From a virus, in IMG/VR virus record IMGVR_UViG_3300042452_000457, positions 1 through 47,440 of that record: 47,440 bases of DNA; one strand, written 5' to 3'. This document shows positions 15,901 through 44,350 of the stretch, in pieces (within the stretch, counting starts at the first letter, position 1; each line of letters starts with the position of its first letter). The translations under genes and the position numbers were made by a program. The notes below the pieces were generated by a model. The model was given only the letters and a program-made list of their open reading frames with translations. It was not told the origin of the DNA and did no database searches.

Positions 15901-18900
15901 AAGGCGAAAGAACAACGCGCACTTGAGGATGAAGCCATCGAGCAGATCATCGAGAACGCTTTAGCCCTCGGGATTACCGAGCCTCCCCAGCCTCCGAATC
16001 GAAAGCTCACTCCCGACGAGCGCCTCGCGCTGATGACCCGTCCGGCGACCCAAGCCAAGGTGCAAAAGGCCACCGAGGATGCAGTTAAGCAGGCCGAGTT
16101 TAACGCTGGATGGGCGGTTATGATGGCCAGCGCAGCCGGCAACGAGGAGCTTCGCGCTCAGTATCAGGAAGCCAAGGACGCTGGAGAAGAGCCCGATCCA
16201 GAGGCGATCGAGGAGGGTCTCGACCTCCCGAAGTACGCTCACTGGCGCACGATCCGCGACGGGTTCCTGAATTACTCGCCAACCACCCTGAAGCTCGTCC
16301 AAGACGTGATCCGCGGCCGGTTTAAGGGAACGCAGTTCGGGCCGAAGAAAGCCGCTCCTCCGGCGCCCGCCAAGATCGACCTGGTGCGCTTGGTTCAACA
16401 ACCAAACGCTGAGATGAGCCGTGTGATCGGCGAGCAGTTGTCCGCCATCGAGCGTGTCATAAACCTAGCCGGCGCGTCCCCCGAGGCCAAGGCCCGAGTG
16501 ATGCAGATGGTAACCGCAAATGTGGGTTCTCAGATCCAGCTGGCCCGCCAGCGTGTGCTGAATAACTTCTTGGACGTGAAGGTCAAGACGGGACCCACGA
16601 CCGCAAGCGACCGCCTCCAGCGGCTGATTAACGCTGGCATCACCGAGGACCCGCGCTACCGGTCCCAAAAGACCCGTGACCTCTTGAAGCGCGTTGCCAA
16701 GACCTACCTGACAGCCGATGAGCTTTTTGGCATGGCGACCAGGACACGGGCCGAGAAGCTCGCGTTCCTTACCGGCAAACTCAACCAGATCACCGCAGCC
16801 GAGAAGTTGACTGATGAGTGGATGCAGGGTGCCGTCTGGACCTATCTCACCGAGCGGATGATGGAAGCTGAGAACGCAGCGGTATCCCAGATCGTGGGTG
16901 CCAAGGACGTGAGCTTCGACCCAGCCCAGCCGAAGACCGACGCGCAGCTGGCGGCCGACCGGGCCAAGGCTGTCGATCGCCTCGCCGGAGGTATCCGCGC
17001 CGGCCTGCTGGACCAGCGCATCGTGGAAAGTATCGCCAAGAATCCCGCGTTGCAGCGGCTGGTTCCTAAGATGGGCGACCTGGTGAAGCGGGTTCTCAAT
17101 ACCCCGCAGGGTGGCCAGGCAAAACTGGCTCAAGCGTTCTCCGAAGCGTTGCTGTCGGAACTGGCGATCGACCAGGCGCTGGCCGACAAGACGGGCCTTG
17201 CGCTGGCCAAAGCGTTCGAGGCGAAGTTTGAACGGGCGCGCATCCGTGCGCTTGATCTTGCGGTCCAGAAGCTCACACCGAAGCAGCGCGAGGAGGCTGG
17301 TCCGGGGCGCCCGCTGTGGCAGAAGATCGAGGAATTCGTGAACGCAGGTGGCATGAACTCGGCGGTGCTCCTGCAAAGCATTGCGAAGAAGGCTGGATGG
17401 AAGGTGCCTACCGATGAGGAGGTTTCACGCCTCCGAGACCTGGCGCGCCTGGAACAGGAACTCAGCACGGCCACCGAAGAGGAAATCAGCAAAGGTATCA
17501 CGGACGACATCAAGGCCGCGAAGAACCTTGGAAGGCGGGCAGACATTATGCGCGAGATCCAGATGCGCTGGGCGCGTATGACCATGCCGATCCGTGGCAA
17601 CAAGCAGAACCTGGCGCGAGCGATCAATGAGGTGACTTCGGCACAACTGCTGTTCAAACCGAGCTTCGTTACCAAGCAGCTGATCGACGTGGCTACCCAG
17701 ATGTTCTACTACACGCCGACGCGTGCAGTAGCGACGGCCGTAGAGCGATACCGCACCAGTCGCGATCCAAACCGCGCAAGCCGACTGTGGAAGGATACCA
17801 GTGCTGCGCTCGAAGACGCCTACAAGGCGCGCTTCAATGCGCTCAACATGGCCCTCACGTCTGCGCTGGAGGCTGCCAAGGGCCGAGCCGAGAAGGATAC
17901 TATCATGGGTATCCAGAGCGGTATCCGGGCGCTAGACCGCATCAACGCGCAGGCCAGCGAGTACGCCAAGAACGGCGACTACGCCAGGTCCGCGCTGGTG
18001 CGAATGATCGGCATCTCTCAGCTATCGTTCCGGTTCGCTTCATCTCTCGATGCCTTCCAAGGCGTCCTGGCTGAACAGCAGGAGATCGGTGCATGGACCG
18101 AGTCCCAGCTGCGTCTTCAGGGCATGGCGCCCGAGCAGGCTCGCAAGACCGCCAAGACTATCATCGGAGATGCGATAGCCGAGTACGCGTTGGCTCAAGC
18201 AATCGTTGGTGATGATCCCAACATTAGCCCGAAAGAGCGCCGCGCCGCTGCCTGGAACGTCGTGCGCGCCCGGCAGTACCAACGCATCAAAGCGGCCGGG
18301 CTTGATACGGGTGCGCTCAAGGAACTCACCCAGGACCTCCGCTCCACGATCGGTTGGAACGTTGAAGAAACCGGTGGGCTTGGTGGCGTGATCGGGCAAG
18401 GCATGAAGAATGCCAGCGACTTCCTTGCGAAGACTGGCATCCCGAACCCTGTCGGACGTTTCTCCAACGCGATTGCGATCGGCATCAACCGTGCCCTCAC
18501 GTTTGCCGGCGGCGGATTCGTGCCGAAAGCCTTCGAGGGATCCGCTTGGTACAAGACCGAGGCTGACAAGACGCAGCGCAAAATCGAGGCCGCAACCGGG
18601 TTGGGCCTGTCAGGCGCCTTTGCTGCACTGGTTCTCTCTGGCGCGCTACGCGTCTTCACCAGGTGGCCCGACGACAAGGAGGAAGCTGACCTCTGGGAAC
18701 GTGAAGGCCACCGTCCGAACACCATGGAGCTTGAACTGCCTGGCGGTAAGATCCTGCGCGTGTCGTTGAACACCGGGCCGATTCAGGTTGTACGGCCGGC
18801 ACTGGCTGCGATCGGTGAGCTTCAGTATCAGGTCGCCAGGCGCAACCGCCTGAACCAGAAGGCCGAGGCTGCTGCCAAAAAGAAGGGCTTGAAGTTTGAG

Positions 18901-19527
18901 CCCCGCGAACTCACTGCGAAGGATGTAGGTGGTGCGTTAGCCTACGGCGCTTACTCCGCTGTGGCGCAAGGGCGCACTGCATCTGGCATGATCGGCTCCG
19001 GCGTGTACCGCCAGACCCCTGACATGGGCAAGATCGCCGCTGGTGCAGTAAGCCCGTTGATTCCGTTTGCACCGCTCCTACGCGAGGCTGCCGCCATGTC
19101 CGGCGCGGAGTTCAACCCCAAGGACCAGACGTTCATTAACCTCCTAGTGCCGACGCCCTGGAGTGGTAAGGTGGACCGCAACTTCCTTGGAGACCCAGTA
19201 GGCACGCCGCGCGCCCAGGAGCGCATCATGTCGATCCTCACCGGCGGCACCGCAATCGTTGGAGGCGACGATCCTGATCGTGCCTACCAAGTGCTGGCCA
19301 AGACTGGATGGACTCCGTCCACCCCGCAAAACAATCGGTTCTTCCAGTTCGGCCGCGTGCAACGGCAGGCCACTCCGGAGGAGTTGACCAGGATGCAGGA
19401 GGTCCGCGCAGTCGAACTCAAGACCCGCATTTCGCAGCTGGATCCTCAGACCGCCACCAAGCGGCAGCTGGATCGGATCGAGGACATTGCGAACGCAAAA
19501 TCGAAAAAAGCTATGGGAATTCGATAA
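9931..19527 (+). CDS. Giant polyvalent protein with internal SF2 helicase
   Basis: 3198 residues, about a fifth of the genome. It begins with a short virion-type motif (GLIEVPDDMGENELLEFV). Residues about 130-310 are hydrophobic and small-residue-rich with AGAETLQEVSEEGLG and GFGVGGLVGLVGG, possibly membrane-active. Pro/Ala linkers surround a small domain at about 694-754 (GGTFSWKDDIKAAGGKYDG). An SF2/Snf2-like helicase follows: Walker A SAPGTGKT 851-858, DEAH 923-926, STATP 955-959, motif V KGGTG 1225-1229, motif VI QVSLRSARYG 1257-1266. A YDDAP-type module lies near 1402 and an SH3-like strand region at about 1517-1577. The long helical C-terminus has a hydrophobic segment (GLSGAFAALVLSGAL, about 2892-2906). 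This architecture matches polyvalent proteins (Iyer and colleagues), multidomain proteins that phages and conjugative elements send in with DNA. The helicase may act against host defence or aid early DNA handling; that is inference. Confidence 0.8.
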   Translation: MPKLVDVENIGLIEVPDDMGENELLEFVGTLDQGALPAAGSAMMREGGRMVGGAMMGLTRLGLEEPPPLISPSMADSPAKMAAYERRQAAWEKRVKEVTPEQTVARAAELEASPTFQMGKALQEGAEEAFPVSPLREDDYLTQVASGLGSLPVSAMPGGMIVYGLSAGENAAQKTGRFYDAKIALALAEGNAAEVNRLQAEKAVKQYQSTLYTAPIGAVTERFGAVAGLGRAISGKVSKSIIKEAARTAGAETLQEVSEEGLGNVVAQKTYNPDQKLTEGVFESGAAGFGVGGLVGLVGGRVGRVAENQRLAQELSAPLSQAQIKEILARQRAGGPAIGGDLGPTLKEIIAARAANNAALGGDPNNPLPNTTATLAGINSGGAPSGPINITPPPVTGGAPGEEAKIPDMDLETDVVDEETPGVPLIDVVRLDDLQRKASSGTIQTDELEELRGMHNRLGLSEPVVSEAPVAATETPTEVQPLTIEETQEYNAGVDLGTDSMSDEELIRFEELAGRVRQLEDAGFEFDETTGWAKPGVAAVAAEVPAAPTETPAAPQEATPFKAAPDFRYTITEAPNYGLSPLSYEDADFDLEALQFQAERGRLTPERFAQSEIGRRMDSGQMSGVNSGLKVDPVGTIKALRAALVPAPAAPAPAPAPTPPTRTAVLTPGAVTVTQTPAKPTPAPAPAPAPAATISDENQALLKNIGLASKVNADGTISLSGGTFSWKDDIKAAGGKYDGIDRSWKISSDGLGKFIERARPAATAAGGQPGGRPAYVADSGLRKLRSDADKRPDRSGLDGGVGNYVGEDTQQLMRQGEAFGIPSIVIDEQIEDVALMVQAYRQGRPLFMLSSAPGTGKTFVLGAAIRELRRSGANKIVYVTLRKELITQIKQDLKDYGIGDVEFITYAEMKDRPAKGSDVLIFDEAHAIKNLSGEGSEQAKKAQEWIKQTKFPILSTATPFENPVQAAYLAGTGVFEPFGGFQDFALAYGATKVKSGDDTILVWKRTNTSDADQVAARNFFKKEGVFTARKTRLPPNQVDSRLVKVKANEEYIRIYEAFENAVEENKSALAGFAKAWIKNFQKRILEASKIDIAINEASNALKAGRWPIIFVETKAERKIDIPRLLDLEDQWRREVDLARRMNERGPSRAQFGLPPMGITDVLASFMEETGISVIEIPSAEDTVKARFGEDNVAIFTGSVTPAKAQKNLDRWRGPRPMVLVATMAKGGTGLSLHDKVGDHQTTQINVNLPWTATQVEQVSLRSARYGLKGTAQMQWLFADNIPFDRELAQRVGSRMADMGAIVHGELPTTAASIQNWNFEDDSFSEANADQADKNDLIKQEQPPPAVPAPAPEPTAPPAPTIRRKVREWAPKGDILDDIINLGGVMSKSQAKKEGRLGKIQSLYDDAPRLDPYFNKIFAGRKRGEGSRNQPDVLLQELAMKNPGKYGDMTVAEFWAEIEKAARGRKGDVAAAKEEAKAAEEGAAEVEGLDAFLQAQDEAFVDAQTDGMQRLGEPDGPVEVSVGSLAIGDRFFVQGELFEVTSVTPDGQYTIRDGEKFGVQQLTDDDTIFVDREPIRVSRSTEFLPPETEAPPQTPRLGAMQQQGDLLSGQSEAFALVGERGVDYERKQREAQAAARAAAEAKAAQEKAQTQMDLGAAAAEASDAIAQFVESITPKAGITEGPTPEESARRVLEALTKLASVAIRAGIQNASQWATSLRLKLGPALQYAWDRAQGSTVEPTPEVIADVSSLPERAATDFGMIYSTPGDPVTTKRGGFEDVVAGRRALTPEVRNAGFQLAVDAFNEAGVKFRQVGDALFAPVDGVDQEAAGRELVRIAKDKIAKAKAEGRSDTVAELINSLRNHFGISEAFSPETRDELYLIGQSEASEFGRNLASLKASVKDFVALARNVRGFLTSAIYDNFNGESVKGVLDKIMTEFRGQFTEAEIQKIVGEKPDLQQMLNRFGILALADTGGRVYRTVQARLTTKKPPTQKAKEQRALEDEAIEQIIENALALGITEPPQPPNRKLTPDERLALMTRPATQAKVQKATEDAVKQAEFNAGWAVMMASAAGNEELRAQYQEAKDAGEEPDPEAIEEGLDLPKYAHWRTIRDGFLNYSPTTLKLVQDVIRGRFKGTQFGPKKAAPPAPAKIDLVRLVQQPNAEMSRVIGEQLSAIERVINLAGASPEAKARVMQMVTANVGSQIQLARQRVLNNFLDVKVKTGPTTASDRLQRLINAGITEDPRYRSQKTRDLLKRVAKTYLTADELFGMATRTRAEKLAFLTGKLNQITAAEKLTDEWMQGAVWTYLTERMMEAENAAVSQIVGAKDVSFDPAQPKTDAQLAADRAKAVDRLAGGIRAGLLDQRIVESIAKNPALQRLVPKMGDLVKRVLNTPQGGQAKLAQAFSEALLSELAIDQALADKTGLALAKAFEAKFERARIRALDLAVQKLTPKQREEAGPGRPLWQKIEEFVNAGGMNSAVLLQSIAKKAGWKVPTDEEVSRLRDLARLEQELSTATEEEISKGITDDIKAAKNLGRRADIMREIQMRWARMTMPIRGNKQNLARAINEVTSAQLLFKPSFVTKQLIDVATQMFYYTPTRAVATAVERYRTSRDPNRASRLWKDTSAALEDAYKARFNALNMALTSALEAAKGRAEKDTIMGIQSGIRALDRINAQASEYAKNGDYARSALVRMIGISQLSFRFASSLDAFQGVLAEQQEIGAWTESQLRLQGMAPEQARKTAKTIIGDAIAEYALAQAIVGDDPNISPKERRAAAWNVVRARQYQRIKAAGLDTGALKELTQDLRSTIGWNVEETGGLGGVIGQGMKNASDFLAKTGIPNPVGRFSNAIAIGINRALTFAGGGFVPKAFEGSAWYKTEADKTQRKIEAATGLGLSGAFAALVLSGALRVFTRWPDDKEEADLWEREGHRPNTMELELPGGKILRVSLNTGPIQVVRPALAAIGELQYQVARRNRLNQKAEAAAKKKGLKFEPRELTAKDVGGALAYGAYSAVAQGRTASGMIGSGVYRQTPDMGKIAAGAVSPLIPFAPLLREAAAMSGAEFNPKDQTFINLLVPTPWSGKVDRNFLGDPVGTPRAQERIMSILTGGTAIVGGDDPDRAYQVLAKTGWTPSTPQNNRFFQFGRVQRQATPEELTRMQEVRAVELKTRISQLDPQTATKRQLDRIEDIANAKSKKAMGIR

Positions 19528-19534
19528 TCCTGTA

Positions 19535-19563
19535 TTGACGGCACGCACCACTTGCCATACGTT
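19535..19563 (+). promoter_or_regulatory. recT: Candidate promoter for recombination operon
   Basis: TTGACG at 19535-19540 is followed by 17 bases and TACGTT at 19558-19563. The spacing is that of a sigma70-type promoter; the -35 matches five of six consensus bases and the -10 three of six. A second TTGACA follows at 19562. The site lies in the 45-base gap between the giant protein gene and recT, where the operon changes from structural to recombination genes. The leader would be very short. Confidence 0.35.
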
Positions 19564-19572
19564 GACACACGT

Positions 19573-28785: not shown

Positions 28786-29011
28786 AGAAGATTTCAGCTT
28801 GGGCATCCTCGTAGCGGGAGGTCGTCAACCAAGCGATTCGGACAGCTTTGGCTTCAGCCTCCTCGTAGGTTTTGCAATCTTCGATTAACTCGACCCAGTC
28901 GGCGGTGTCGTAGCATTCGACGAACACCTGATAACCGTAGGCGGTTTCGTATCGGGAAAACGCCAACTCTTTGAGTTTGGCGATCCAGTCTTGTTTCGTT
29001 TCGTTTTTCAT
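28784..29011 (-). CDS. Small hypothetical protein, first of the leftward operon
   Basis: 75 residues from ATG 29011 (MKNETKQDWIAKLKELAFSR). It is an acidic, Tyr-rich alpha/beta protein (YGYQVFVECYDTADWVELIE, YEEAEAKAVRIAWLTTSRY). No Shine-Dalgarno sequence is visible. As the first gene after the divergent gap 29012-29130, it is probably the earliest leftward product. Function unknown. Confidence 0.5.
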   Translation of the reverse strand: MKNETKQDWIAKLKELAFSRYETAYGYQVFVECYDTADWVELIEDCKTYEEAEAKAVRIAWLTTSRYEDAQAEIF

Positions 29012-29130
29012 ACTGTGGGCCGTCAAGGTCTCATAAAACGCTTTCCGTGTCAACTCCTCATTCGCAGTTCTTCCAAAAAACCTCGGCAAACATTGGTTGA
29101 AATCGTGGTCGAAAAGTGTATGTCTACGTC
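29012..29130. promoter_or_regulatory. Divergent intergenic region, candidate promoters
   Basis: Genes leave this gap in both directions. On the minus strand there are two TTGAC boxes: TTGACA, the reverse complement of TGTCAA at 29058-29063, and TTGACG closer to the start at 29011. On the plus strand TTGAAA at 29096-29101 is followed 16 bases later by TATGTC. None has a strong -10 partner, so this is a candidate control region placed mainly by gene orientation. Confidence 0.35.
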
Positions 29131-30476: not shown

Positions 30477-32690
30477 TCAACTCCAGGTTTCCGTTTTCTT
30501 CGGCGGCGAAATAGCCCACTTCACCTTGCCGTTGGTCTTGGTCTTCTTGATGCGCTCCGGATCCTGCTCATGCAGCCGAGCGAGGTAGACGCCGCAGGCG
30601 GTGTTGAAGCGGAAGAGGCGGTCGGCCTCGCGGGAATACTTGGAGTCGCGGAGGATGGTTTCGAGGTCGGCGGCGGTGCCTCGCCAGGTGAGGAACTCGT
30701 TCTCGAAGATCACGGTGTCGATGAGGCCGATGAGTTGGTGCTCGGGCGACAGCTGCATGAGTTCTTCGAGGATGGCTGGGTGCTGGTAGGCTTTCAGGCC
30801 ACAGCGGGGTTCGACTAGGTGCTCAGGCACCGTGAGGCCGTCGAGGTAGTGCGCGAAGGCTGGCAGTTCGGTGTCGATGATGTCGCGGAGGACTTCGATT
30901 TCGGGGCCGGGCCACGGGAGCGGATTGCGGACGCAGCGCAGGATGATGAGCTTGTCCATCAGGGAGGGGTCGAGCGGGGGGAGGACTTGGAGGTTCTCGG
31001 GCTCGTCGTTGAGGGAAATGGACATGGCCCAGATGGGGCGGAGCGTGACGGCTTGGCGGTTCTTGGGGTGGCAGGACTGGTCGATGTCGAACAGCATGGA
31101 TTTGATGTGGGAGCCGAGGGAGCGCCGGGAATGGATGTCGCGGCCGGGTGCCTCATCGGAGATGCAGAGGTGTTCAGAGGCGAAGAGGTCGCCGTTGAAC
31201 TCGGTGGCGCCGGACATATAGCGGTAGGGCTTGGCGATGCGGCCTCCGAGGAGTTTGGTGATGACCTGAGCCTGGACGAAGGACTTGCCGCACGCGGCTG
31301 GGCCGACGAGGGCAAGGGCTTGGCTGGCTCGCCAGGTGTTGGTGAGGACGGCGCGGCGACGGAGCGCCAGCCAGAAAATGAGGCGCCAGTATTGGTCGTC
31401 GTTCTGGTCGAGGAGGTTGTGGAGGTAGGTCTGGATGCGGGCGCAGTCGCCGGGGACGGATTCCAGTAGCGCGACGGATTCGGTGACCAGGATGTTGCCG
31501 TAGAGACCGGCGCGGTGACCGGCCACGCAGCCGGCATACCGGATCCGGGTGTCCCGGGTGCGGCGCAGGAGTTCACGGTCCACGTCGGAGGCGCCCGTCT
31601 GGTCCTTGGTGGGGGAGACGCCGGACTCGGTGAAGAGGGTGCGGACACGCTCGCCGTTGATCTGAGCGTAATCGCCCCAGGAGTTGCGGGTCCACCACTG
31701 GCCTGAATTGGGGTCGTAATGGAGGTCGTCGAGAGGGTTGGCCGAGGCGGGTTTCGGTTGGGCAGGCGCCGGCCGTGGCAGGTCGCCAGCAGCGTCGAGG
31801 AGGCCCTGAATGGAGATGTCAACGGGGATGGGGTCCGCGAGGTCCCAGCCGTCGGGCAGGGAATCAGGGAGATGGACGACGCGGGCGGCCGGGAGGCGGG
31901 CTTTCAGGTAGATCATAGCGTCCCGGCCGGGTTTGTCGTGGTCGGGCCACAGGAAAATCGGGGTGGCTCTGGTCAGCAGGGGGTCGATAGTAGCGCGGGC
32001 GACCCGCTTGGACCCGCCCTGCCAGGTGATGACGACGTGGGACGGAAAGAGCTTAGAGGCGGCGACGGCTGTTTTCTCGCCCTCTACGATAAGGACGGGG
32101 TCGTTCGGGCGCCGGGTGAGGAGGTGGAGGTTGAAGAGGGGGACCGGGTCGGGGTTGGGCCAGCCCTTCCAGCGCCAGTGACGGGGGTTGAGTGGGTCGG
32201 GAAGCTGGTTATCGGGCGGCAGGAGTCGGAGGGGGCGCACGTCCTTGGAACCGTCCGGGAGGTCGAAGCGGACGACGTAGGCGTGGATCGTGCCGTCTGG
32301 GTTGTGGTAGGGCCAGGCGGCGGTGCCGTAGCGGTACGGCTCGGTGACGCTGGTGCGGTGGCCGTGCTTGAGGGGGTCGAACGTGCGGTGGGTGGGTTGG
32401 TAGTCGTCGCGGATGCCGAGGAATTGCCGAGCCCAGGCGGCTGCCCTGCCGATGGGAAGGGTCTGGTTCTGGGCGACGAGGGCGAGGAGATCGCCACCCT
32501 CGCCAGCTGCGTGGTCGTACCAGAGGCCCTGCTTGGGGCCCTGGAGTTCGACGTACAGGGAGTCGCCGGCGTCACCGAAGACGTTGCCGATGACCCACTG
32601 GGTGCCGATGCGGCGACCGGAGGGAAGGAGTTGAGTGCAGAGTTCTTCAACGCGGACGGCGAGTGCGTCCGCGAGTTCGTGGAGTTCCAT
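30477..32690 (-). CDS. Primase-helicase (TOPRIM plus D5/SF3-like ATPase)
   Basis: 737 residues. The N-terminal 190 residues include a beta-rich module (GLWYDHAAGEGGDLLALVAQ) of the type before phage TOPRIM primases. The TOPRIM core has the Glu in LIVEGEKTAV (E204) and the DxD in FLWPDHDKPG (D250, D252) for metal-dependent primer synthesis. A Pro/Ala linker leads to a helicase half with Walker A GPAACGKS (463-470) and a Walker B-type LCISDEA (about 508-514). It probably primes and unwinds phage DNA as a hexamer at the fork. It is the only replicative enzyme of this kind here and must work with a host polymerase, since none is encoded. Confidence 0.8.
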   Translation of the reverse strand: MELHELADALAVRVEELCTQLLPSGRRIGTQWVIGNVFGDAGDSLYVELQGPKQGLWYDHAAGEGGDLLALVAQNQTLPIGRAAAWARQFLGIRDDYQPTHRTFDPLKHGHRTSVTEPYRYGTAAWPYHNPDGTIHAYVVRFDLPDGSKDVRPLRLLPPDNQLPDPLNPRHWRWKGWPNPDPVPLFNLHLLTRRPNDPVLIVEGEKTAVAASKLFPSHVVITWQGGSKRVARATIDPLLTRATPIFLWPDHDKPGRDAMIYLKARLPAARVVHLPDSLPDGWDLADPIPVDISIQGLLDAAGDLPRPAPAQPKPASANPLDDLHYDPNSGQWWTRNSWGDYAQINGERVRTLFTESGVSPTKDQTGASDVDRELLRRTRDTRIRYAGCVAGHRAGLYGNILVTESVALLESVPGDCARIQTYLHNLLDQNDDQYWRLIFWLALRRRAVLTNTWRASQALALVGPAACGKSFVQAQVITKLLGGRIAKPYRYMSGATEFNGDLFASEHLCISDEAPGRDIHSRRSLGSHIKSMLFDIDQSCHPKNRQAVTLRPIWAMSISLNDEPENLQVLPPLDPSLMDKLIILRCVRNPLPWPGPEIEVLRDIIDTELPAFAHYLDGLTVPEHLVEPRCGLKAYQHPAILEELMQLSPEHQLIGLIDTVIFENEFLTWRGTAADLETILRDSKYSREADRLFRFNTACGVYLARLHEQDPERIKKTKTNGKVKWAISPPKKTETWS

Positions 32691-32718: not shown

Positions 32719-32937
32719 TCAGTCCTCGGAGTTCAGGTCGTATTCGTTGGCCTCAAGGAGGGCCGTCTGGAGTTGGTCAGGTGTGGGCGGGTTGCTGCCG
32801 CAGATCATACCGAGGAGCTCGTAGAAGCGGTAGGTGGCCTCGGGGGATAGGTGTTTGGGGGCTGTCTGACGCAGGGCCTGCGTGATAGCAGCTGCGCGGA
32901 ATGTGGGGTCTTGGTAGATAATAGGAACGTATTTCAC
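32719..32937 (-). CDS. Small hypothetical protein
   Basis: 72 residues (MKYVPIIYQDPTFRAAAITQ and on), overlapping the VRR-NUC gene's stop (ATGA). Acidic at the C-terminus and mostly helical. It sits between nuclease and primase-helicase genes and may be a partner of one of them. No family recognised. Confidence 0.5.
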   Translation of the reverse strand: MKYVPIIYQDPTFRAAAITQALRQTAPKHLSPEATYRFYELLGMICGSNPPTPDQLQTALLEANEYDLNSED

Positions 32938-33305
32938 AGGTTGTCGGTGTCGGAGATTGAGCGGGCGATGATAGCGAGTCCGCCGGCTGCGGTGATCTGG
33001 TCGGCCCAGTTGCGCTGGTCTGGCCGGACGCGGCCGGTGGGGGTCTTGACCTCGATGGAGAGGAATTGGGCGATCGGCTTGCCGACCATGTCGGGCGTGA
33101 CGGTCAGGGTACGCCAGCCGATGAGGTCGCCGGACCCGGGAAACAGGCCCATACGGACGTGCCGGGCGTCCATCAGGAAGACGCCTTCGGGATCGCGAAG
33201 GGCTTTGCCGACGTATCCCTCGCCCACTTGATTGCGGAAGACGCGGACGTGGGGTTTCGATCCAGCGGCGCGGAGGATCATGGCTTGGAGTTCGGATTCG
33301 GTCAT
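32934..33305 (-). CDS. VRR-NUC domain nuclease
   Basis: 123 residues. This is a stand-alone PD-(D/E)XK nuclease of the VRR-NUC kind: an N-terminal helix with Glu (ESELQAMILRAAG), then VRVFRNQVGEGYVG, then the catalytic Asp in GSGDLIGW, EVK in FLSIEVKTPTGRVRPDQ, and the following conserved Gln and AGGLAIIARS. The family (named from FAN1 and phage enzymes) cuts branched or flapped DNA. Here it is paired with a DEAH helicase 24 bases upstream, a common phage pair that probably processes replication or recombination intermediates. Confidence 0.85.
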   Translation of the reverse strand: MTESELQAMILRAAGSKPHVRVFRNQVGEGYVGKALRDPEGVFLMDARHVRMGLFPGSGDLIGWRTLTVTPDMVGKPIAQFLSIEVKTPTGRVRPDQRNWADQITAAGGLAIIARSISDTDNL

Positions 33306-33329: not shown

Positions 33330-34712
33330 TCATGGATTAAGGATGAGCGTACTGGTTTTGCGCGAGCGAGCTTTCCAGCGGAAGAAAGCCCATCCCGGTT
33401 TGTAACCACGGCGAGCGGCAAGGGCACGGAAATCTTCGAGAGTTCGACACATTCCTTCCTCGCGGCGTTCGTCGCGCTTCTTGGCGATGTCCTCGATGGA
33501 CAGGCGCTGAAGCTCGCCATCGACCTCGTCGATCTCCCGAGGAGCGATCTTGCGTTCGGATCCGCACTGCGGGCATGTGGTGCCGGCGAAGATCGCGAAA
33601 CACTTCGAGCACTGCTTGGTTTCGACCAGACGCGACTTCGACTTGCGTTTCTCGCGGCCGCCAAGGTCCCACTCGCGATCTTGTTCGGCTAGGCCGTGCC
33701 GCATGCAGTTTCCTACGTGGTCGAGGATGACAGCGTGAGTCTTGCCGGGGTAAGGTCTGAGAGCACGACCAAGCTGTTGCAAATGCATGGACAACGATTG
33801 AGTGGGCCGAAGGAGAATCGCGGCGTTGACCGTGGGGAGATCGAACCCCTCGGAGATCAACTCGCAGCTGGTGAGGACCAGGATGCGGCCGGCGGTCAGG
33901 TCTTCCACTCGCTTCTTGCGGGTCTCCTGATCCAGCTGGCCGTCGATCGACGCTGCCGGGATACCAGCGGCTTCAAACTTTGCCGCAACGTGCTGCGAGT
34001 GAGCGACGGAGATGCAGAAGGCCACCGCCCGCTGGTTTGGGCAAAAGCGCCGGTAGTGCGTTACCGCGTCGCCGGTTATTTTTGGGGTGTCGATTATCTC
34101 GGCCGCCTCACCGAGATTGTAATCGCCGGCCAGCTTGGAGACGCCTGAGAGATCCACGGCCTCCCGGGGCGCGTAGTAGACCGGCCTGGCCAGGAATCCG
34201 TTGTCGATGAGCCACTCAACAGACGGCCCCATGACCATACGGTCGAACACGGAGCCGAGGCCCTTGCCGTCAAGACGCTCTGGGGTCGCAGTGACGCCGA
34301 TGAACTTGGCTTTCGGCCAGTTGGCGAACATCTGGATGTAGGACTTTGAGACCGCGTGATGCGCTTCGTCGATGATGACAAGGTCGGGCTCTTGAACGCG
34401 ATCGAACCGTCGCGCAAGGGTCTGGATTGAGGCAACCATGGCAGATTGTTGAGCCATGAATTTGCCAGACTGGATGAATCCATGAGGCACGCTGACCCGC
34501 TTGAGCGTGGAACTGATCTGTTCGAGGATTTCATTCCGGTGCGCGACGATGATAACCCGGGATCCACGTTTCAGGACCTGCGAGGTGATGTAGCTGAAAA
34601 GGACCGTCTTGCCGGATCCAGTAGGGCTTACTGCGATCGGGCGCTTGGCGCCGGTGGCAAACGCGGATCGGATGTCGTTGGACAGCTGGTTTTGGTACGG
34701 CCGGAGTTCCAT
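33330..34712 (-). CDS. DEAD/DEAH-box SF2 helicase with zinc ribbon
   Basis: 460 residues from ATG 34712 (MELRPYQNQLSNDIRSAF). The motifs are all visible: Q-motif-like RPYQ, Walker A SPTGSGKT (29-36), DEAH 115-118, VTATPERLDGKG, and LQQLGRALRPYPGK as motif VI. A C-terminal four-cysteine ribbon (CSKCFAIFAGTTCPQC) lies at about 385-400. Helicases of this UvsW/RAD25-like shape remodel forks and branched DNA, often next to VRR-NUC in phages. No Shine-Dalgarno sequence precedes the start. It is the first gene of the leftward replication operon, just after the divergent operator region. Confidence 0.85.
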   Translation of the reverse strand: MELRPYQNQLSNDIRSAFATGAKRPIAVSPTGSGKTVLFSYITSQVLKRGSRVIIVAHRNEILEQISSTLKRVSVPHGFIQSGKFMAQQSAMVASIQTLARRFDRVQEPDLVIIDEAHHAVSKSYIQMFANWPKAKFIGVTATPERLDGKGLGSVFDRMVMGPSVEWLIDNGFLARPVYYAPREAVDLSGVSKLAGDYNLGEAAEIIDTPKITGDAVTHYRRFCPNQRAVAFCISVAHSQHVAAKFEAAGIPAASIDGQLDQETRKKRVEDLTAGRILVLTSCELISEGFDLPTVNAAILLRPTQSLSMHLQQLGRALRPYPGKTHAVILDHVGNCMRHGLAEQDREWDLGGREKRKSKSRLVETKQCSKCFAIFAGTTCPQCGSERKIAPREIDEVDGELQRLSIEDIAKKRDERREEGMCRTLEDFRALAARRGYKPGWAFFRWKARSRKTSTLILNP

Positions 34713-34738
34713 CGTGAGCCGTAGGCTGTGTTCTATGG

Positions 34739-34752
34739 CTTGACGTGTCAAG
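34739..34752. promoter_or_regulatory. Candidate operator CTTGAC-GT-GTCAAG
   Basis: A perfect 6-bp inverted repeat around a 2-base centre lies in the 62-base gap between the leftward helicase gene and the rightward ribbon-helix-helix gene. Each arm also reads as a -35 box (TTGACG on plus, TTGACA on minus), so a bound repressor would cover both promoters. The neighbouring small DNA-binding gene is the obvious candidate regulator. No binding data exist. Confidence 0.5.
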
Positions 34753-34774
34753 CACAAGCTGCACACTCGCCGGC

Positions 34775-34966
34775 ATGAGTAACACGATTCGAGTGAGCTA
34801 CAGGTTGCCGATTGAGGTGGCCCAGATGTTGGAAGATGAGGCGATTCGATCCCGCCGGACGAAAACCGCGGTGTTGATTATCGCGATCGAGGACCATGTT
34901 CTGCAATGCGAGGGTGAGCGAGCGGCTTCGTCAAAAAAACCGGTTGACACTCGAAAGAGGCGCTAG
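34775..34966 (+). CDS. Ribbon-helix-helix regulator candidate
   Basis: 63 residues from ATG 34775 (MSNTIRVSYRLPIEVAQMLE). The pattern of one basic strand (TIRVSYRLP) followed by two helices (EVAQMLEDEAIRSRRTKTAV, LIIAIEDHVLQ) is that of CopG/Arc-type ribbon-helix-helix proteins, which bind palindromes as dimers. The C-terminus is basic (SSKKPVDTRKRR). It reads away from the palindrome at 34739-34752 and probably controls the divergent replication and capsid operons, an inference from position. Confidence 0.6.
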   Translation: MSNTIRVSYRLPIEVAQMLEDEAIRSRRTKTAVLIIAIEDHVLQCEGERAASSKKPVDTRKRR

Positions 34967-35175
34967 CACGCTTCCAGCACGACGATTAACTCGGTTTCGT
35001 CAACCGAGCGCGAACTGGGCGCGTTATTTCAGTTGGCCAAGGGTGCCGAAGGGCATCCGCCGGTTCCACGGCTCGGACTCGCCACCGAGGTTGGATTACT
35101 GGTCTTCACAGACCCGCAATCTGCCTCGTTGTCTCGGAGGGGTAGGTGAAGAAACCCCGAGGCAGGAGAGCCAAT
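34967..35175 (+). promoter_or_regulatory. Structured leader of the capsid gene
   Basis: 209 bases without a gene. A TTGACA box (34944-34949) just upstream could start a transcript, but its -10 is weak. CTCGGTT (34990-34996) pairs with AACCGAG (35002-35008). GGGTGCC and GGCATCC around 35039-35056 form a second hairpin. CTCGGAGGGG (35133-35142) can pair with CCCCGAG (35155-35161) directly before the ribosome-binding site AGGAGA at 35164-35169. The leader may set capsid expression by RNA structure. Confidence 0.4.
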
Positions 35176-36780
35176 ATGGCCGCAGGAAATGTAATCAGCT
35201 GTAAGCAGTTTGCTTCCTTCCTCGTTTCGCAGGAGCCTGTGTACGACAAGGAAGTGCTCAAGGACATCCGCCCGTTTGACGGGATGATCGGATACTACAA
35301 CACCGGATCTTTCGACGCGTATTCCGGTACCACCCACCGTTTCGACCGCTTCAACAGCGTGTTCCCGAACGTGACTGGAGCCTGGGAGAACCCGACTGGC
35401 GCGGCCTGTACCGGCCAGCCGTGCGATCCCACCGAGAACAAGATCGGTTGGGGCTGGAGCCGCAACGAATACTCGCTGGAGAAGCAGTCATGGGGTTCCG
35501 ACATCCTGTGCTTCGACCAGATCATGACGAAGACGAAGGCCAAGGAGCACTTCCGTCAGATCATCGACGATGTGTTGCGTCCGGCCACGAACTGGATCAC
35601 CACGTACTACCTCCAGCGTAAGGCGGCTGAACTGGCTGGCTCGCTGGTGGGCGGCAACTCTTTCGCGTGCGCCGCTGGTCTGCCTCCGATCAACTTCTCT
35701 TGGGTTGGCGCTGGCTACACCACGCTGCGTGTGACGAATAACGCCGCGGCCGCAATCACTGCCGCTTCGCTGGGTCGTTTGACCCCGGAGATCCTCCAGT
35801 CGCGTGTCACCCGTCAGTATTTCTTGGGCGCCATTCAGGCCGGCAAGGAAGGCTACGATTCCCTTCAGTTGCACACCGACAAGGATACCTTCCGGTATCT
35901 GTCGAAGACGAACGCGTCCCTGTACGATGCCTGGCGTTTCGGCGTTTTCGCCCCAGCCGCCAAGGAGTTCTACAAGTACGGTTTCATGGGTTTCGTCGGC
36001 GACTTCATGGTGAAGGTCCTCCAGTTCCCGCTGCGCTTCAATGCGACCGCGACCGCTGGCAACTACACCTTGGTGCTGCCGTACAAGAACGTGGCCGCAA
36101 CCGAGGGTATCAAGTCTGTCTTCAACGAAGACTACGACAAGGCCCAGTACCAGATCAGCTACATCAACAACCCTCGCGCCCTGCGCGTGATGCCGTTCCG
36201 CCCCGAGGCCGTGAACCCGAATATGCCGTTCATGGTTCGGGATTATGGTGGGCGTTGGAAGTTCGCGACCAACGATTTGGGCGCGGACTGTGCGGGCAAG
36301 CCGATCGACAACAGTCGCGGCAACAAGGGCAAGTTCATTGCTGACTTCCAGTTGGCCGTGAAGCCTGAGCATCCGGAATGGCTGGAAGCCATTTTCCACA
36401 AGGTCGATCGCGGTTGCATCGAGATCATCCCGGTCTGCGAGGCTGACCCCGGCAACCCTGCTCAGAGCTACAACTCTGAGGATCCAACCTGCGGTGTTGT
36501 GGTTCAGTTCACGGCCGTTGCGAACGACGCTGGAAACTTCGTCATCGGAACGACTGGTATCCTGTGCGACGAAAACATCGTCACCAACGCGGGTATCAGC
36601 GAGGCCACTCCGGCTGCGTTGGTCGCCGCCTTGCAGACGGTCTGGGACGCCGAGTTCGGCACCGCGTCTGGCACCTGGAGCGTTGTCTCTGGCAACGTGA
36701 TCCAGCTGGCCGGCAGCGCGATCGGTACGACCACTGAGGTTGTGCCCTGCACGAACGTGACCCTGGAGTTCGCGATCTAA
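35176..36780 (+). CDS. Major capsid protein
   Basis: 534 residues from ATG 35176, with AGGAGA six bases upstream. Segments typical of a HK97-fold subunit are seen: an N-terminal region ending in YYNTGSFDAYSG, a long central helix (AKEHFRQIIDDVLRPATNWI), and phrases such as VLPYKNVAATEGIKSVFNED. Residues 440-534 (from EADPGNPAQSYNSEDPTCGV) form a Thr/Val/Gly-rich terminal extension, perhaps a surface domain. The best evidence is context and the absence of another candidate: it precedes decoration or fibre genes and codes for a protein of the right size. Scaffold and portal lie on the other strand. Confidence 0.75.
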   Translation: MAAGNVISCKQFASFLVSQEPVYDKEVLKDIRPFDGMIGYYNTGSFDAYSGTTHRFDRFNSVFPNVTGAWENPTGAACTGQPCDPTENKIGWGWSRNEYSLEKQSWGSDILCFDQIMTKTKAKEHFRQIIDDVLRPATNWITTYYLQRKAAELAGSLVGGNSFACAAGLPPINFSWVGAGYTTLRVTNNAAAAITAASLGRLTPEILQSRVTRQYFLGAIQAGKEGYDSLQLHTDKDTFRYLSKTNASLYDAWRFGVFAPAAKEFYKYGFMGFVGDFMVKVLQFPLRFNATATAGNYTLVLPYKNVAATEGIKSVFNEDYDKAQYQISYINNPRALRVMPFRPEAVNPNMPFMVRDYGGRWKFATNDLGADCAGKPIDNSRGNKGKFIADFQLAVKPEHPEWLEAIFHKVDRGCIEIIPVCEADPGNPAQSYNSEDPTCGVVVQFTAVANDAGNFVIGTTGILCDENIVTNAGISEATPAALVAALQTVWDAEFGTASGTWSVVSGNVIQLAGSAIGTTTEVVPCTNVTLEFAI

Positions 36781-40430: not shown

Positions 40431-40576
40431 AAACCAAGTACGCCAAACTGGTCACGAAGCTCAAGAAGCAAGGCGCTGACGATCCCCGCGCTCTCGCGGC
40501 CTTCATTGGCAGAAAAAAGCTCGGCGCGGAAGAGTTCCAACGCCGAGCCGCTGCTGGCCGTAAGGCCGCTCGTTAG
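40427..40576 (+). CDS. 49-residue basic protein
   Basis: Short gene from ATG 40427 (ATGA overlap). The product MKTKYAKLVTKLKKQGADDP continues RALAAFIGRKKLGAEEFQR and ends AAAGRKAAR. Small Arg/Lys/Ala-rich proteins with AAFIGRKKLG occur in other phage genomes with unknown function. Its stop TAG (40574-40576) interlocks with the stop TAA (40575-40573) of the minus-strand scaffold gene. Confidence 0.6.
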   Translation: MKTKYAKLVTKLKKQGADDPRALAAFIGRKKLGAEEFQRRAAAGRKAAR

Positions 40577-41820
40577 TACGCCGAGGGCAGTTCGTCGATC
40601 GCGTCTTCCGCGTTCTTAGGAGCTACACGGGTCGCCGTCGAGGTGCCTTCGCCTTGGCCGGGTTCAGACGACCGGACCTTGCCGACCTTCTTCTCCAGTT
40701 CTGCCACCTTCTGCTGGAGGCGGATCACACGCAGACGCTCACGCCCGTAGGCCCGCGCCCGTAGAGCCACTTGAGCCTGGGCCTTGGTAATCAGGTCTAC
40801 CTTGTCGTCGTAGCCCATGTCGGCGTCGATGCCTTCACCTTTGAGGGCAATGCGCACCAAGCGGTCGCTCTCGTCCAAGAGCTTGTTGCCATCTTCATCA
40901 CCGTCTTCCCGGCCGAACAGTTGGGCGTGGGTCTTCTCGTAGTCCGCGAACTGAGACTCGAACAGGTCACGCGAGCGCGTCTGGCGGCTCTCCAGCTGCT
41001 TCTTTGATTCGACCTCACGCTGGGCGCCCTTCTCCTTCCACTCGGAGATGGACTTGTCCCGCGCCTGGGTCAACTCGATGAGCCGCCGCCGGTGCGCCAT
41101 GATCTCGGGTGCAGCCGCACCAAAGGTCTCCTGGGCGATGATAGCAGCCTTGGCCACCGGCACATTGAGGAGCGCCATAATGTCCTGATGATTGGCGTCA
41201 CGCTCGTTGCCATCTGGATCAGTGACGCGGATGCCCTCAATGTCGCCCAGAGCGGTCTGCCAGGCTTCGCGCAACGGCCCCTCGTACTTCTGCTTGTACT
41301 CGCCGGAGCGGGTGTAGTTCAGGTAGCGGACCTCGGTGTCGAGTTCCTCGGCGTTCTTGCGGATCGAATCCATCTCGGCCTTGAGAGACTTCGTTGCCTC
41401 CTCAACCTCCTTGCGGGTGCCCTCGGACTTGACGCGCTCAAGCTCTTGGATCTTGGCGGCAAGATCGTCGCGCTCCTTCTTGGTGAGTTCGTACTGCTCG
41501 CGGAACTGCTTCAACGAGGCTGGCTCGTTCTTCGGTGCTGGATCCGGTGTTTTGGCAGGTGCAGCAACTTCGGTTTTGGGTGAGACCAGCTTGTCTAGGC
41601 CGAAGGGGTCTTCGTTCTTCTGAGCTGCAGCCGGGGTGACGGGCGCCGGTTCTGGTGAGGCGACCGGGGCTGGTGCTTGTGGCGCAACGGGAGCGGCGGG
41701 TGCCGGTGAACCCATTGGATTTTCAAGCGCATTCCCTTCGAGGGCGTCGATGCCAGCGAAGGCTTCGGTGTAATCTGCGCCCCGCTCGGTCGGCGCGTCT
41801 GGTGATAGCAGCAAGTTCAT
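40573..41820 (-). CDS. Scaffolding protein
   Basis: 415 residues. After a Pro/Ala-rich region (PAPAAPVAPQAPAPVASPEP) the protein is almost all charged coiled coil (KKERDDLAAKIQELERVKSE, then RKEVEEATKSLKAEMDSIRK). A helical C-terminus follows (AYGRERLRVIRLQQKVAELE), then a short basic/acidic tail. This, its length and its place after the portal gene are typical of phage scaffolds that guide capsid assembly and are then lost. The capsid gene itself is on the opposite strand, 3.8 kb away. Confidence 0.7.
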   Translation of the reverse strand: MNLLLSPDAPTERGADYTEAFAGIDALEGNALENPMGSPAPAAPVAPQAPAPVASPEPAPVTPAAAQKNEDPFGLDKLVSPKTEVAAPAKTPDPAPKNEPASLKQFREQYELTKKERDDLAAKIQELERVKSEGTRKEVEEATKSLKAEMDSIRKNAEELDTEVRYLNYTRSGEYKQKYEGPLREAWQTALGDIEGIRVTDPDGNERDANHQDIMALLNVPVAKAAIIAQETFGAAAPEIMAHRRRLIELTQARDKSISEWKEKGAQREVESKKQLESRQTRSRDLFESQFADYEKTHAQLFGREDGDEDGNKLLDESDRLVRIALKGEGIDADMGYDDKVDLITKAQAQVALRARAYGRERLRVIRLQQKVAELEKKVGKVRSSEPGQGEGTSTATRVAPKNAEDAIDELPSAY

Positions 41821-42080
41821 TCAAGGTTCTGTTTTACGGTCGGTTTATCTCTCTGCGTCGTCACCAGCCCATGAAGCTCCTCGATCAACGCCTTGGCGCC
41901 CTGCCGGCGGCAGTTGGCGTTCCAGCCGTGTTGAGGGTTTTCGGATGCTGGCAGGTTCCAGCAGAGATTGTTGAAGGCAGCCAACAGCGCGGCTTGGAAG
42001 TTGGCGTTGTCCAGTAGGCGCTCAAGCTCCATCACGCGATCTTTGTCGCGCTGAAACTCTTGTTTTGGGGATTGGATCAT
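41817..42080 (-). CDS. Small hypothetical protein between portal and scaffold
   Basis: 87 residues from ATG 42080 (MIQSPKQEFQRDKDRVMELE), ATGA overlap with portal and with scaffold. It is helical (RLLDNANFQAALLAAFNNLC) and includes GWNANCRRQGAKALIEELHG. Translational coupling with both suggests an assembly role. No family recognised. Confidence 0.55.
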   Translation of the reverse strand: MIQSPKQEFQRDKDRVMELERLLDNANFQAALLAAFNNLCWNLPASENPQHGWNANCRRQGAKALIEELHGLVTTQRDKPTVKQNLE

Positions 42081-44350
42081 TGGTTGAGGATATTTGCCTG
42101 AGTCTTCAAATCCAGAGCCGCAATGTCCGCCCGGGTCATGGCACCCTTGCGCTGGGCCTCGGCGATCGTGTTGGCGTTCTTGCGCTGCTGATCCTGATCG
42201 AAAGCAACCTGCTTCTGGATGCGCTTCTGTTCGGCGTTCGCAGCGGCGATCTCGGACTTGGACTGCGCGGTGATGAGCATTGCCTGAATCTTGCCGGCCA
42301 CCTCGGGGTTCATACCGTTGCCAGCTGCACCAGCTTCGGCCTGAGCCTGAGCCTGCTCTTGGAGACGCTGCACGTAGCCCTTGATGTAGTTCGACGCCTG
42401 ACTGATTCCGTCGTTGTAGAGCTTCATGTTCTGCTCTTGGCCGGGGTCTTCGGAGATCAACCCCATCTGCTCTTGGATGTGCTGAATGACATTCACCAAT
42501 CCCATGACGCGGTCCATGGTCGTCATACCGCCCTGCTCCTTTTCGATACGCCCAATGGCGCCACCAAGCATCTGGAGAAGCGTCTGGATGTACTCGGGCC
42601 GATTCATCGCGCTGGCGATGACCACCGGCTGGCCGTCGATGAGCGTTCCCCAGGCCAGCGTGGCGCGCTCGACCGCTGGGGATACCGGTTTGTTGTCCAC
42701 CGGTGCGAGGCGGTTCGCCAAAAGCGGATCGTCCGTGTTGGCTTCGACGTACATGTGCACAACCTCGGCCTGAGAATCGGGTGCTAGCAGGGGCCGGATA
42801 GCCATGAGGCGGTCGGCCTGCGCGATCTCCAGCATCTTGTTGCCGGAACCCATGACGCGCTCGGGCATGATGTCCCAGCTGTCGAGGTTTTTCCAAACGG
42901 ATGGATCGACGCCTTCGACTTCACACTTCCGGCGGAACTGAACGCAGTCGGGATGGTCAATCGTGCAGAACCGGCGAGCGATCTCCCGGTACTGAAACGA
43001 TTGCTGGGTGTAGGCACGGGTGAGCATCGAACCCATGAGCGCGTTGGCGTTGTTTACGCGGGCCATCACCTCGGTCGCCGTCAGTTCCTTGGAAGAACCG
43101 TCGTTCACGTCCTGCGTGTAGGCTGCGCTGGACTCGGCCATAATCTGCCGGTGCATGGACATAGCCCCAGAGAGCATCGTGTAATCCACGACATGGCGCT
43201 CAGACTGCGGAACCCACGACAAGCCCTCGGGGATCACGCCCATGTTGAACAGGTCGATCTTCTCCATCCGTTCAGCGTCACCGTCCGCGACGTTGCGGAA
43301 GAGCCAGAGCATCTGCTCGAACACGGAGTCCGTGAATTTGCAGCGTAGGCGGTTCTGAAGGTGGCAGACCGCGTAAAGCAGGTAGCCCAGTGATCGCACC
43401 GAGTGCCAGCGGAACGGCGGCACGACAGCACCGTCGGCGAACTGGATGTGCATCAACTCAAAGATGTCCCGGCCGTAGCACCGATTTCCGGCGTCGAAAA
43501 GCCACTGGCCAGCGGTCTGCATATTGCCGATGCCGCTGTTGTACTGGTCCACGATGATCCGGCGGCGCCAAGAGGGATCGTCGCTGGTCGTGTCCAAAAA
43601 GTAGAAATCGTAGCACCGCAAGACCGGCGTTGCGTCGGATCCCCAGTAGCCGGAGTTCTCCTTGAAATCCTCCTCAATCTTCTCAGGGAAGTATTGGCCG
43701 GACCAGTCGTTCACCTGGAGACTGGTCGCCTCCTTGCTAATCATGTTGGCCAACAACTCGTTGACCAGCTTCATGTTCCAGCCCTCGTCCACGTTCTCGC
43801 CCCGAGTCATCCGAATCAGGTCGGCCGCCGTGAAAGACGTGTAAATCGCGAAGTGCGACAGGTTCTCCATCGTGGTCAACGTGTTCGTCGGGACCAGGAT
43901 GTCCTCGGTGCCGCGAGCCGATGGGCACCAGTCGCGATCACGGAGCCAGGTGACCGGGCCGATGCCGTGAAGCACGGTGGCCGCAAACTGGGACTCCAAG
44001 ACCGTGGAGTATTTCGGAGACCGCTTCATCACGCGGTTCAGCTGCTTCGTGATGATGTTGCCCCACTGGGTGCGCTTGTCCCGTGGGCCTATGTCGAGAC
44101 CTACCGAGAAGTAATTCTGCGGTTTCAGGAACGCGTTGGTGAACTGCTGGCGCGCCGCGTGAATGATCCGCGTGCCTTCCAGGAAGTTCACGTTGGTCTG
44201 GATCCGGTTGTCTCGCGCCTCCTCGTCGCTGTAGGGAGGGTTGCCGTTGAATGTCGCGTTGATGCGGGCGCGGTTGCGAGATCGAGGCTGCTCTGCTTCA
44301 AGCATCGCGCTGACCACATTCCAGACTTTACTCGGTTCTTTGAAACTCAT
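42077..44350 (-). CDS. Portal protein (P22-like)
   Basis: 757 residues, close to the P22 portal (725). It starts MSFKEPSKVWNVVSAMLEAE and includes the typical NVNFLEGTRIIHAARQQF region. In the wing/stem part are RYFE-like elements (RRRIIVDQYNSGIGNMQTAG) and YLLYAVCHLQNRLRCKFTDS. A long C-terminal coiled coil (LQEQAQAQAEAGAAGNGM, QKRIQKQVAFDQDQQRKNAN) resembles the P22 barrel helix. It makes the dodecameric ring at one capsid vertex through which DNA enters and leaves. It overlaps the next gene by 4 bases. Confidence 0.85.
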   Translation of the reverse strand: MSFKEPSKVWNVVSAMLEAEQPRSRNRARINATFNGNPPYSDEEARDNRIQTNVNFLEGTRIIHAARQQFTNAFLKPQNYFSVGLDIGPRDKRTQWGNIITKQLNRVMKRSPKYSTVLESQFAATVLHGIGPVTWLRDRDWCPSARGTEDILVPTNTLTTMENLSHFAIYTSFTAADLIRMTRGENVDEGWNMKLVNELLANMISKEATSLQVNDWSGQYFPEKIEEDFKENSGYWGSDATPVLRCYDFYFLDTTSDDPSWRRRIIVDQYNSGIGNMQTAGQWLFDAGNRCYGRDIFELMHIQFADGAVVPPFRWHSVRSLGYLLYAVCHLQNRLRCKFTDSVFEQMLWLFRNVADGDAERMEKIDLFNMGVIPEGLSWVPQSERHVVDYTMLSGAMSMHRQIMAESSAAYTQDVNDGSSKELTATEVMARVNNANALMGSMLTRAYTQQSFQYREIARRFCTIDHPDCVQFRRKCEVEGVDPSVWKNLDSWDIMPERVMGSGNKMLEIAQADRLMAIRPLLAPDSQAEVVHMYVEANTDDPLLANRLAPVDNKPVSPAVERATLAWGTLIDGQPVVIASAMNRPEYIQTLLQMLGGAIGRIEKEQGGMTTMDRVMGLVNVIQHIQEQMGLISEDPGQEQNMKLYNDGISQASNYIKGYVQRLQEQAQAQAEAGAAGNGMNPEVAGKIQAMLITAQSKSEIAAANAEQKRIQKQVAFDQDQQRKNANTIAEAQRKGAMTRADIAALDLKTQANILNQ

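Follow-up and report, generated by a model that had tools for sequence, protein, structure and literature searches.

The sequence analysed here, referred to as the window, is a virus record of 47,440 bases. A divergent gap of 62 nt (34713–34774) separates the start codon of a leftward SF2 (Superfamily 2) DNA helicase gene (34710–34712, minus strand) from the ATG (34775) of a rightward gene for a 63-aa ribbon-helix-helix (RHH) protein; the features in and around this gap are listed in Table 1. The leftward genes had been described in an earlier note as helicase, nuclease and primase, and all three generated HMM matches (ResIII, Helicase_C and phrog_16 for the helicase), the last as a primase-like protein. 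The same note placed the RHH gene just upstream of the capsid gene; the position was correct, and the name "capsid" is owed to synteny, with no family match. Gene order is constant in the phage group, with the helicase on the left in nearly all loci and the RHH gene followed by the capsid-like gene on the right. Four loci (L043, L056, L059 and L060) have a 67–69 aa ORF (MDKQNRLT...) beginning at the conserved leftward ATG instead of the helicase, and keep the gap. A small inverted repeat, AGCC-GTA-GGCT, lies at 34717–34727 between the helicase −10 box and the helicase ATG; its middle base is T, C or A among relatives while the arms are constant, and it is absent in L066 and L114. Elsewhere in the window, a 3198-aa ORF occupies 9931–19527, and over the N-terminal 1023 residues it has matches to DNA helicase PHROGs (1.3e-11) and a weak one to a virion RNA polymerase PHROG (2.2e-4). 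A promoter-like TTGACG-N17-TACGTT at 19535–19570, without a palindrome, lies 9 nt 5′ of the ATG of a RecT-like gene.

Table 1. Genes, promoter-like elements and proposed regulatory features of the locus (window coordinates).
Feature	Coordinates	Strand	Basis
Second leftward gene group promoter-like element, TTGACA-N17-GACCTT	29025–29053	−	.A...T at N17 in 8/8 site-holding regions
Candidate second site (weak), GCTTTCCGTGTCAACT, differing from the 16-mer at 4 positions	29040–29055		Common place and orientation in 8/14 regions
Primase/helicase-like protein	30477–32690	−	phrog_239, 3.5e-15
VRR-NUC nuclease	32934–33305	−	Pfam VRR_NUC, 3.1e-08
SF2 DNA helicase, first gene of leftward operon	33330–34712	−	ResIII, 1.1e-26; phrog_16, 6.7e-102
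Helicase-operon promoter-like element, TTGACA-N17-CAGCCT, 10 nt before ATG	34723–34751	−	.A...T at N17 in 6/8 representatives
16-bp dyad, proposed RHH operator	34738–34753		Invariance in five deep lineages; one exact copy in each of 14/16 records
RHH promoter-like element, TTGACG-N16-CACACT, 7 nt before ATG	34740–34767	+	.A...T at N16 in 7/8 representatives
63-aa RHH protein, proposed autorepressor	34775–34966	+	AF2, Foldseek, Pfam in relatives
P_cap, capsid-like gene promoter-like element, TTGACA-N17-CACGCT	34944–34972	+	TTGAC[AG] in 5/5 deep lineages
Structured leader RNA	34979–35175 (start estimated)	+	Covariation; Shine-Dalgarno-like GCAGGAG at 35162–35168
Leader hairpins	34990–35008, 35013–35034, 35042–35057, 35072–35089, 35094–35121, 35133–35161	+	At least 6 hairpins possible
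534-aa capsid-like protein	35176–36780	+	Synteny

The 63-residue product, for which an RHH-type protein had been claimed, is predicted to adopt that fold, a strand followed by two helices. Its AF2 model (pLDDT 81.6) shows extended residues 1–12 and helices 13–26 and 30–53; DSSP assigned no strand in the lone chain, a strand requiring the dimer. The first PDB matches in Foldseek were the RHH proteins CopASO, Arc, CdbA, ParD, AmrZ and CopG, with probability up to 0.97 and E-values of 0.1–1, none below 0.001. Pfam generated hits over nine relatives on TraY (6/9) and RHH_1 (2/9), the window protein scoring 21.0 bits for TraY, just under the Pfam cut-off of 21.3, and a PHROG match (E 0.015) was to a partition protein. 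Nine aligned RHH proteins, which go down to 29% identity to the window protein, share the strand motif R-V-S-[YF]-R-L-P without change; R6, S8 and R10 are among the invariant residues, and by comparison with Arc they would be the base-reading side chains. An invariant strand motif would fit the unchanged dyad described below.

The palindrome reported earlier in the 62-base gap, CTTGACGTGTCAAG, was located at 34739–34752, and its symmetry continues for one base on each side to give GCTTGACGTGTCAAGC (34738–34753) with 7-bp arms. Judged from this one sequence, the dyad is not clearly above chance. Shuffling of the gap gave dyads with 6-bp arms and a 0–4 nt spacer in 6.6% of shuffles, and dyads with 7-bp arms in 1.6%; four dyads with a 7+2+7 layout occur in the whole window, where the 14-mer, allowing up to 3 mismatches, is found no more often than expected. 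A chance dyad, possible at this level in a single sequence, was ruled out by conservation.

Scanned with the RHH protein, IMG/VR yielded 33 loci, and the 14-mer was present in 33/33, its end 21 or 22 nt 5′ of the RHH start codon. The corresponding scan with the capsid-like protein yielded 38 loci, most contigs being common to both sets; the 14-mer lies 391–440 nt 5′ of the match in 34 of them, and in the other four (L049, L053, L058 and L072) the match starts 1–233 nt from the contig end. Searching for the pattern of dyad plus −10 box gave 40 matches, 34 of which belong to the phage group; the other six have AC or CT centres and no ORF of more than 30 aa starting within 46 nt downstream. Locus L114 was recovered through a leader pattern; L150, L156 and L161, the last a contig from a MAG, came from profile searches, which also met the L114 contig a second time. 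L161 is a 6.3-kb phage-like contig binned in a Nitrospiraceae MAG (AM_1312), which may be a host hint or a binning error; as the one cellular match among 54 stretches, it was considered too weak for naming Nitrospiraceae as the host.

Thirteen representatives, 48–81% identical to the window at 4-fold sites of the capsid gene and 31–98% in the RHH protein, were compared over the 16-mer. All 16 bases were kept in 12 of them and 15 in L045; one outer dyad base is changed in L045–L047. The five deepest RHH-bearing lineages are the window, L044, L161, L114 and L066, with RHH proteins down to about 30% identity and capsid-gene 4-fold sites 48–63% identical to the window (the L114 figure coming from 49 sites only). 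Across these five, 16/16 dyad positions are invariant vs 6/50 flanking positions, and the conserved block and the dyad have identical limits. On this comparison the dyad is conserved far beyond neutral expectation, and because it is conserved across deep lineages we accept it as real. Failure of the palindrome to be conserved in related phages had been named beforehand as grounds for abandoning the proposal; the palindrome was found conserved.

The exact 16-mer occurs exactly once in 14 of the 16 records searched whole, and it is absent, even at 3 mismatches, from the whole records of L150 and L156, two distant relatives. When seven of these 16 records were searched with the RHH profile, the gene was found in five and was not found in the L150 and L156 records; L150 still has the helicase at the left and the capsid-like gene at the right. 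The 2.2-Mb record that contains L161 has its sole exact copy of the 16-mer on the phage-like contig. The RHH gene and the dyad thus occur or are missing together in the records examined, which we regard as support for a functional pair and not as proof, because a single deletion in L150 could take both and the records may be fragments.

The −35-like boxes that the earlier note saw for both directions are present and abut exactly inside the dyad, the rightward TTGACG at 34740–34745 and the leftward TTGACA at 34751–34746, so that the two hexamers make up its inner 12 bp, or 12 of its 16 bases. A CACACT-type −10 box follows the rightward hexamer at N16 in 7/8 representatives, 6–8 nt 5′ of the start codon, with L114 departing from the rule; a CAGCCT or TAGCCT −10 box follows the leftward hexamer at N17 in 6/8, and in the two that depart, L114 and L066, none is recognisable. 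No Shine-Dalgarno sequence was seen by eye for the RHH mRNA, and because of this and the short distance from −10 box to start codon the mRNA is probably leaderless. Scanning 34000–36000 for a simple sigma-70 consensus revealed no promoter; the proposed −10 boxes are poor matches to TATAAT and rest on comparison between relatives. The phage group also has −35 boxes elsewhere with different flanks, such as G-TTGAC at P_cap and A-TTGACG at 19535.

The 534-aa product of the capsid-like gene generated no Pfam or PHROG family match and nothing credible in PDB, and its AF2 model is poor (pLDDT 38); the label "capsid" therefore rests on synteny. In L156 the capsid-like homologue comes after homologues of window 42077–44350 and 40573–41820 on the same strand, neither of which has a convincing family match in the window. 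The usual phage order is portal-scaffold-capsid, and the capsid identity is likely on this basis. The gene appears to have a promoter of its own, P_cap, which overlaps the 3′ end of the RHH gene and contains no palindrome. Among the five deep lineages its −10 box (.A...T at N17) is found only in the window and L044; L161 has it shifted, and in L114 and L066 it is poor. In L045–L047 and L114 a different frame or length puts the stop codon of RHH within the P_cap hexamer, and the hexamer is still kept. L150, which is without RHH, has TTGACG-N16-TACAAC 5′ of the capsid-like gene (by eye). Inspection by eye showed no T-run terminator between the RHH and capsid-like genes; a weak intrinsic terminator match at 35007 was rejected, as it coincides with the first two leader hairpins and 1.8 such matches are expected by chance.

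Between P_cap and the capsid-like gene lies the structured leader. In an alignment of 14 sequences, 97.5% of the cells of the 37 pairs drawn from the window are paired, vs 28–51% in slid registers. Double-sided changes occur at 18 of the 37 pairs and are spread over five of the eight helices, and among 500 shuffles none scored as high for four measures and one did for the fifth. Helices 4, 5 and 7 never vary and hence fall outside this test; the first of them reads CCCGG/CCGGG in L150 vs CTCGG/CCGAG (by eye). RNAalifold with 28 sequences paired the 3′ half differently (60 pairs, of which 10 have double-sided changes), and the true pairing there may be either this one or the one drawn from the window. 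Tolerated mismatches are G-U rather than A-C (22 vs 4 in A6, 55 vs 3 in A1), which points to a plus-strand RNA and disfavours a DNA cruciform or a minus-strand RNA. Built from 13 sequences, a covariance model for the 3′ portion found the independent L150 (E 1.9e-11) and did not find L156; it also generated weak reverse-strand matches, the best at E 0.0076. Rfam gave no match at gathering score in the window, L066, L044, L042 or L045, and a permissive Rfam scan of 34600–35300 gave only one chance snoRNA match. The leader core is nearly constant (GGTTCCACGGCTCGG..TCGCC.CCGAGG.TGGATT...CAATCTGCCTCG), and all 37 matches of an IMG/VR scan with 27 bases of it are on contigs of the phage group. The leader RNA is a more novel element than the proposed RHH autorepressor.

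A degenerate copy of the dyad at 29040 is a candidate second RHH site, and the −35 box of a second leftward promoter-like element sits within it. The L044, L039, L026, L038 and L028 records have such a copy 5.2–5.9 kb left of the proposed operator in the same orientation. The site was present in 8 of the 14 regions examined and absent or unrecognised in 6: L171 has one base inserted in the site, L173 keeps the neighbourhood and has lost the site, the neighbourhood was not recognised in L167, L168 and L172, and no site was found in L174, which belongs to an RHH-less relative. At up to 3 mismatches, 15 virus records contain 6 extra matches vs 4 for reversed-pattern controls; because these barely exceed the controls, 29040 stays a candidate, and it is the common place alone that argues for it. 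The likeness of the two leftward promoters (29009–29055 and 34710–34753) continues past the operator (TTGACACG..AA.C), and L166 and L169 additionally have ACGGCTC directly after the −10 box; the two promoters look as if they had been duplicated or were co-regulated.

The reading that we consider probable is that RHH is an autorepressor with the dyad as its operator, shutting early leftward transcription, and that the capsid-like gene is served by its own promoter. RHH would bind GCTTGACGTGTCAAGC, an operator composed of two abutting back-to-back −35 hexamers, and when bound would deny RNA polymerase access to the promoter of the RHH gene as well as to that of the leftward helicase/nuclease/primase operon; RHH would silence both directions because the dyad covers both −35 boxes. 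Early in infection both promoters would be able to fire, one at a time since the polymerase footprints overlap, and the RHH mRNA would begin at or beside the RHH ATG. As RHH accumulates it would close its own gene and the early leftward operon, and perhaps, acting at the weaker 29040 site, a second group of leftward genes. The capsid-like gene would escape by being transcribed from a separate promoter, located where the RHH gene ends, and through the structured leader. RHH binding, repression, timing and all transcript starts are what we infer here. A more elaborate version, with two layers of early-late control, is tentative: RHH would close two early leftward promoters that have in common an operator on their −35 boxes, and the capsid-like gene, on its own promoter, would be gated post-transcriptionally by a new class of multi-hairpin leader that binds a phage protein or ligand.

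The main rival, which we rate as unlikely, has no operator at all: the dyad would be two back-to-back −35 boxes kept since both promoters are needed, RHH would act elsewhere, and any switch would be the mutual exclusion of two polymerases. Abutting −35 boxes automatically form a dyad, the hexamers span the inner 12 bp, and −10-like boxes follow on both sides in most representatives, so that this explains 12 of the 16 dyad bases. However, the five deep lineages also keep the outer GC/GC bases without change, the conserved block stops where the dyad stops, and the −35 hexamers at P_cap and 19535 have different flanks. Moreover, the leftward hexamer is perfect in L114 and L066 despite no leftward −10 box being seen there, and the dyad is missing where RHH is missing. 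The autorepressor reading also departs from the original proposal, that a repressor at the palindrome moves the phage from early to late expression by acting as a toggle for two operons, replication to the left and capsid to the right. The constant gene order agrees with a toggle, and transcription from the RHH promoter could continue into the capsid-like gene, no T-run terminator having been seen by eye. We nevertheless find it improbable: the capsid-like gene is preceded by a separate promoter-like element, and with both −35 boxes within one site binding should shut both directions rather than swap them, so that repression at the palindrome would stop the helicase and RHH together. What stands of the proposal is a self-regulating repressor suggested by a conserved dyad on both −35 boxes; what is not supported is the exchange of replication for capsid expression. 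The most economical reading keeps the early-to-late idea with changed logic, the palindrome turning early genes off.

The remaining two explanations are both very doubtful. In one, RHH is a protein of the plasmid-partition or TraY type, and the dyad is part of a partition site or a replication origin site, not of a promoter. TraY is the best Pfam match (in six of nine members), a PHROG match is to a partition protein, and helicase and primase genes adjoin RHH; against this, each record has one site and no array, and the site is on two promoter-like elements, close 5′ of the RHH start codon. The other, no more credible in our estimate, assigns the dyad to a host regulator or a different phage regulator. 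That RHH is the binder is indeed something we only infer, but the site occurs once in each virus record, next to the start codon of RHH, is present or absent together with the gene, and in the 2.2-Mb record has its only exact copy on the phage-like contig.

Small RHH regulators that repress their own genes are described for archaeal viruses in one report (PMC5569661), namely AvtR of AFV6, which protects the region between the gp29 and gp30 promoters, and SvtR of SIRV1, which also restrains a structural gene; their sites, as given there, are imperfect repeats, several per genome, along which the proteins spread. The present protein resembles AvtR and SvtR in being a small viral RHH protein with proposed self-repression, and differs in having one perfect 16-bp dyad over two −35 boxes; the hosts and promoters also differ from those of the present phage group. 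Viral RHH regulators with self-repression, action between promoters or restraint of structural genes are already known (AvtR, SvtR and Arc), and the present system would add one in a phage group with few sequenced-phage relatives. Arc and Mnt of phage P22 are RHH repressors acting on promoter elements, and Arc has the same fold as is predicted here. A PDB sequence search at E up to 1 gave the RHH protein no match to Arc or Mnt, the Arc/Mnt operator presumably differs from the present dyad, and the immunity-region control of P22 was not seen in the present phage. Early repressors of the lambda Cro type resemble the proposed role of RHH in that they accumulate and lower early transcription both ways from a divergent region. 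Lambda Cro is a helix-turn-helix protein with several operators, unlike the RHH protein and one strong site proposed here. RHH antitoxins (RelB, ParD and CopASO) share the fold and weak model matches with the present protein, whose RelB-like match scored 18 vs a cut-off of 50 bits. An antitoxin was rejected, there being no toxin-like gene adjacent; the neighbours are the leader and capsid-like gene and, divergently, the helicase. The capsid leader resembles Rfam leaders and riboswitches in covarying and in its location, after a promoter-like element and ahead of a ribosome-binding site, and differs in having no Rfam match. Searches of open-licence PMC papers for RHH phage switches or capsid leader RNAs turned up no description of this system. 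Among 50,697 phage records, the capsid-like protein has no match and the terminase only one at 20.6% identity.

Taken together, the locus offers a predicted regulator-operator pair that can be tested base by base in a phage group of few known relatives, with the relatives lacking RHH as natural controls. An operator and back-to-back −35 boxes can be told apart by setting the limits of the conserved block against those of the dyad and against −35 boxes found elsewhere in these phages. Should the capsid leader act on translation, it would represent a new structured RNA in control of a main virion gene, a mode of control that is, to our knowledge, uncommon in dsDNA phages.
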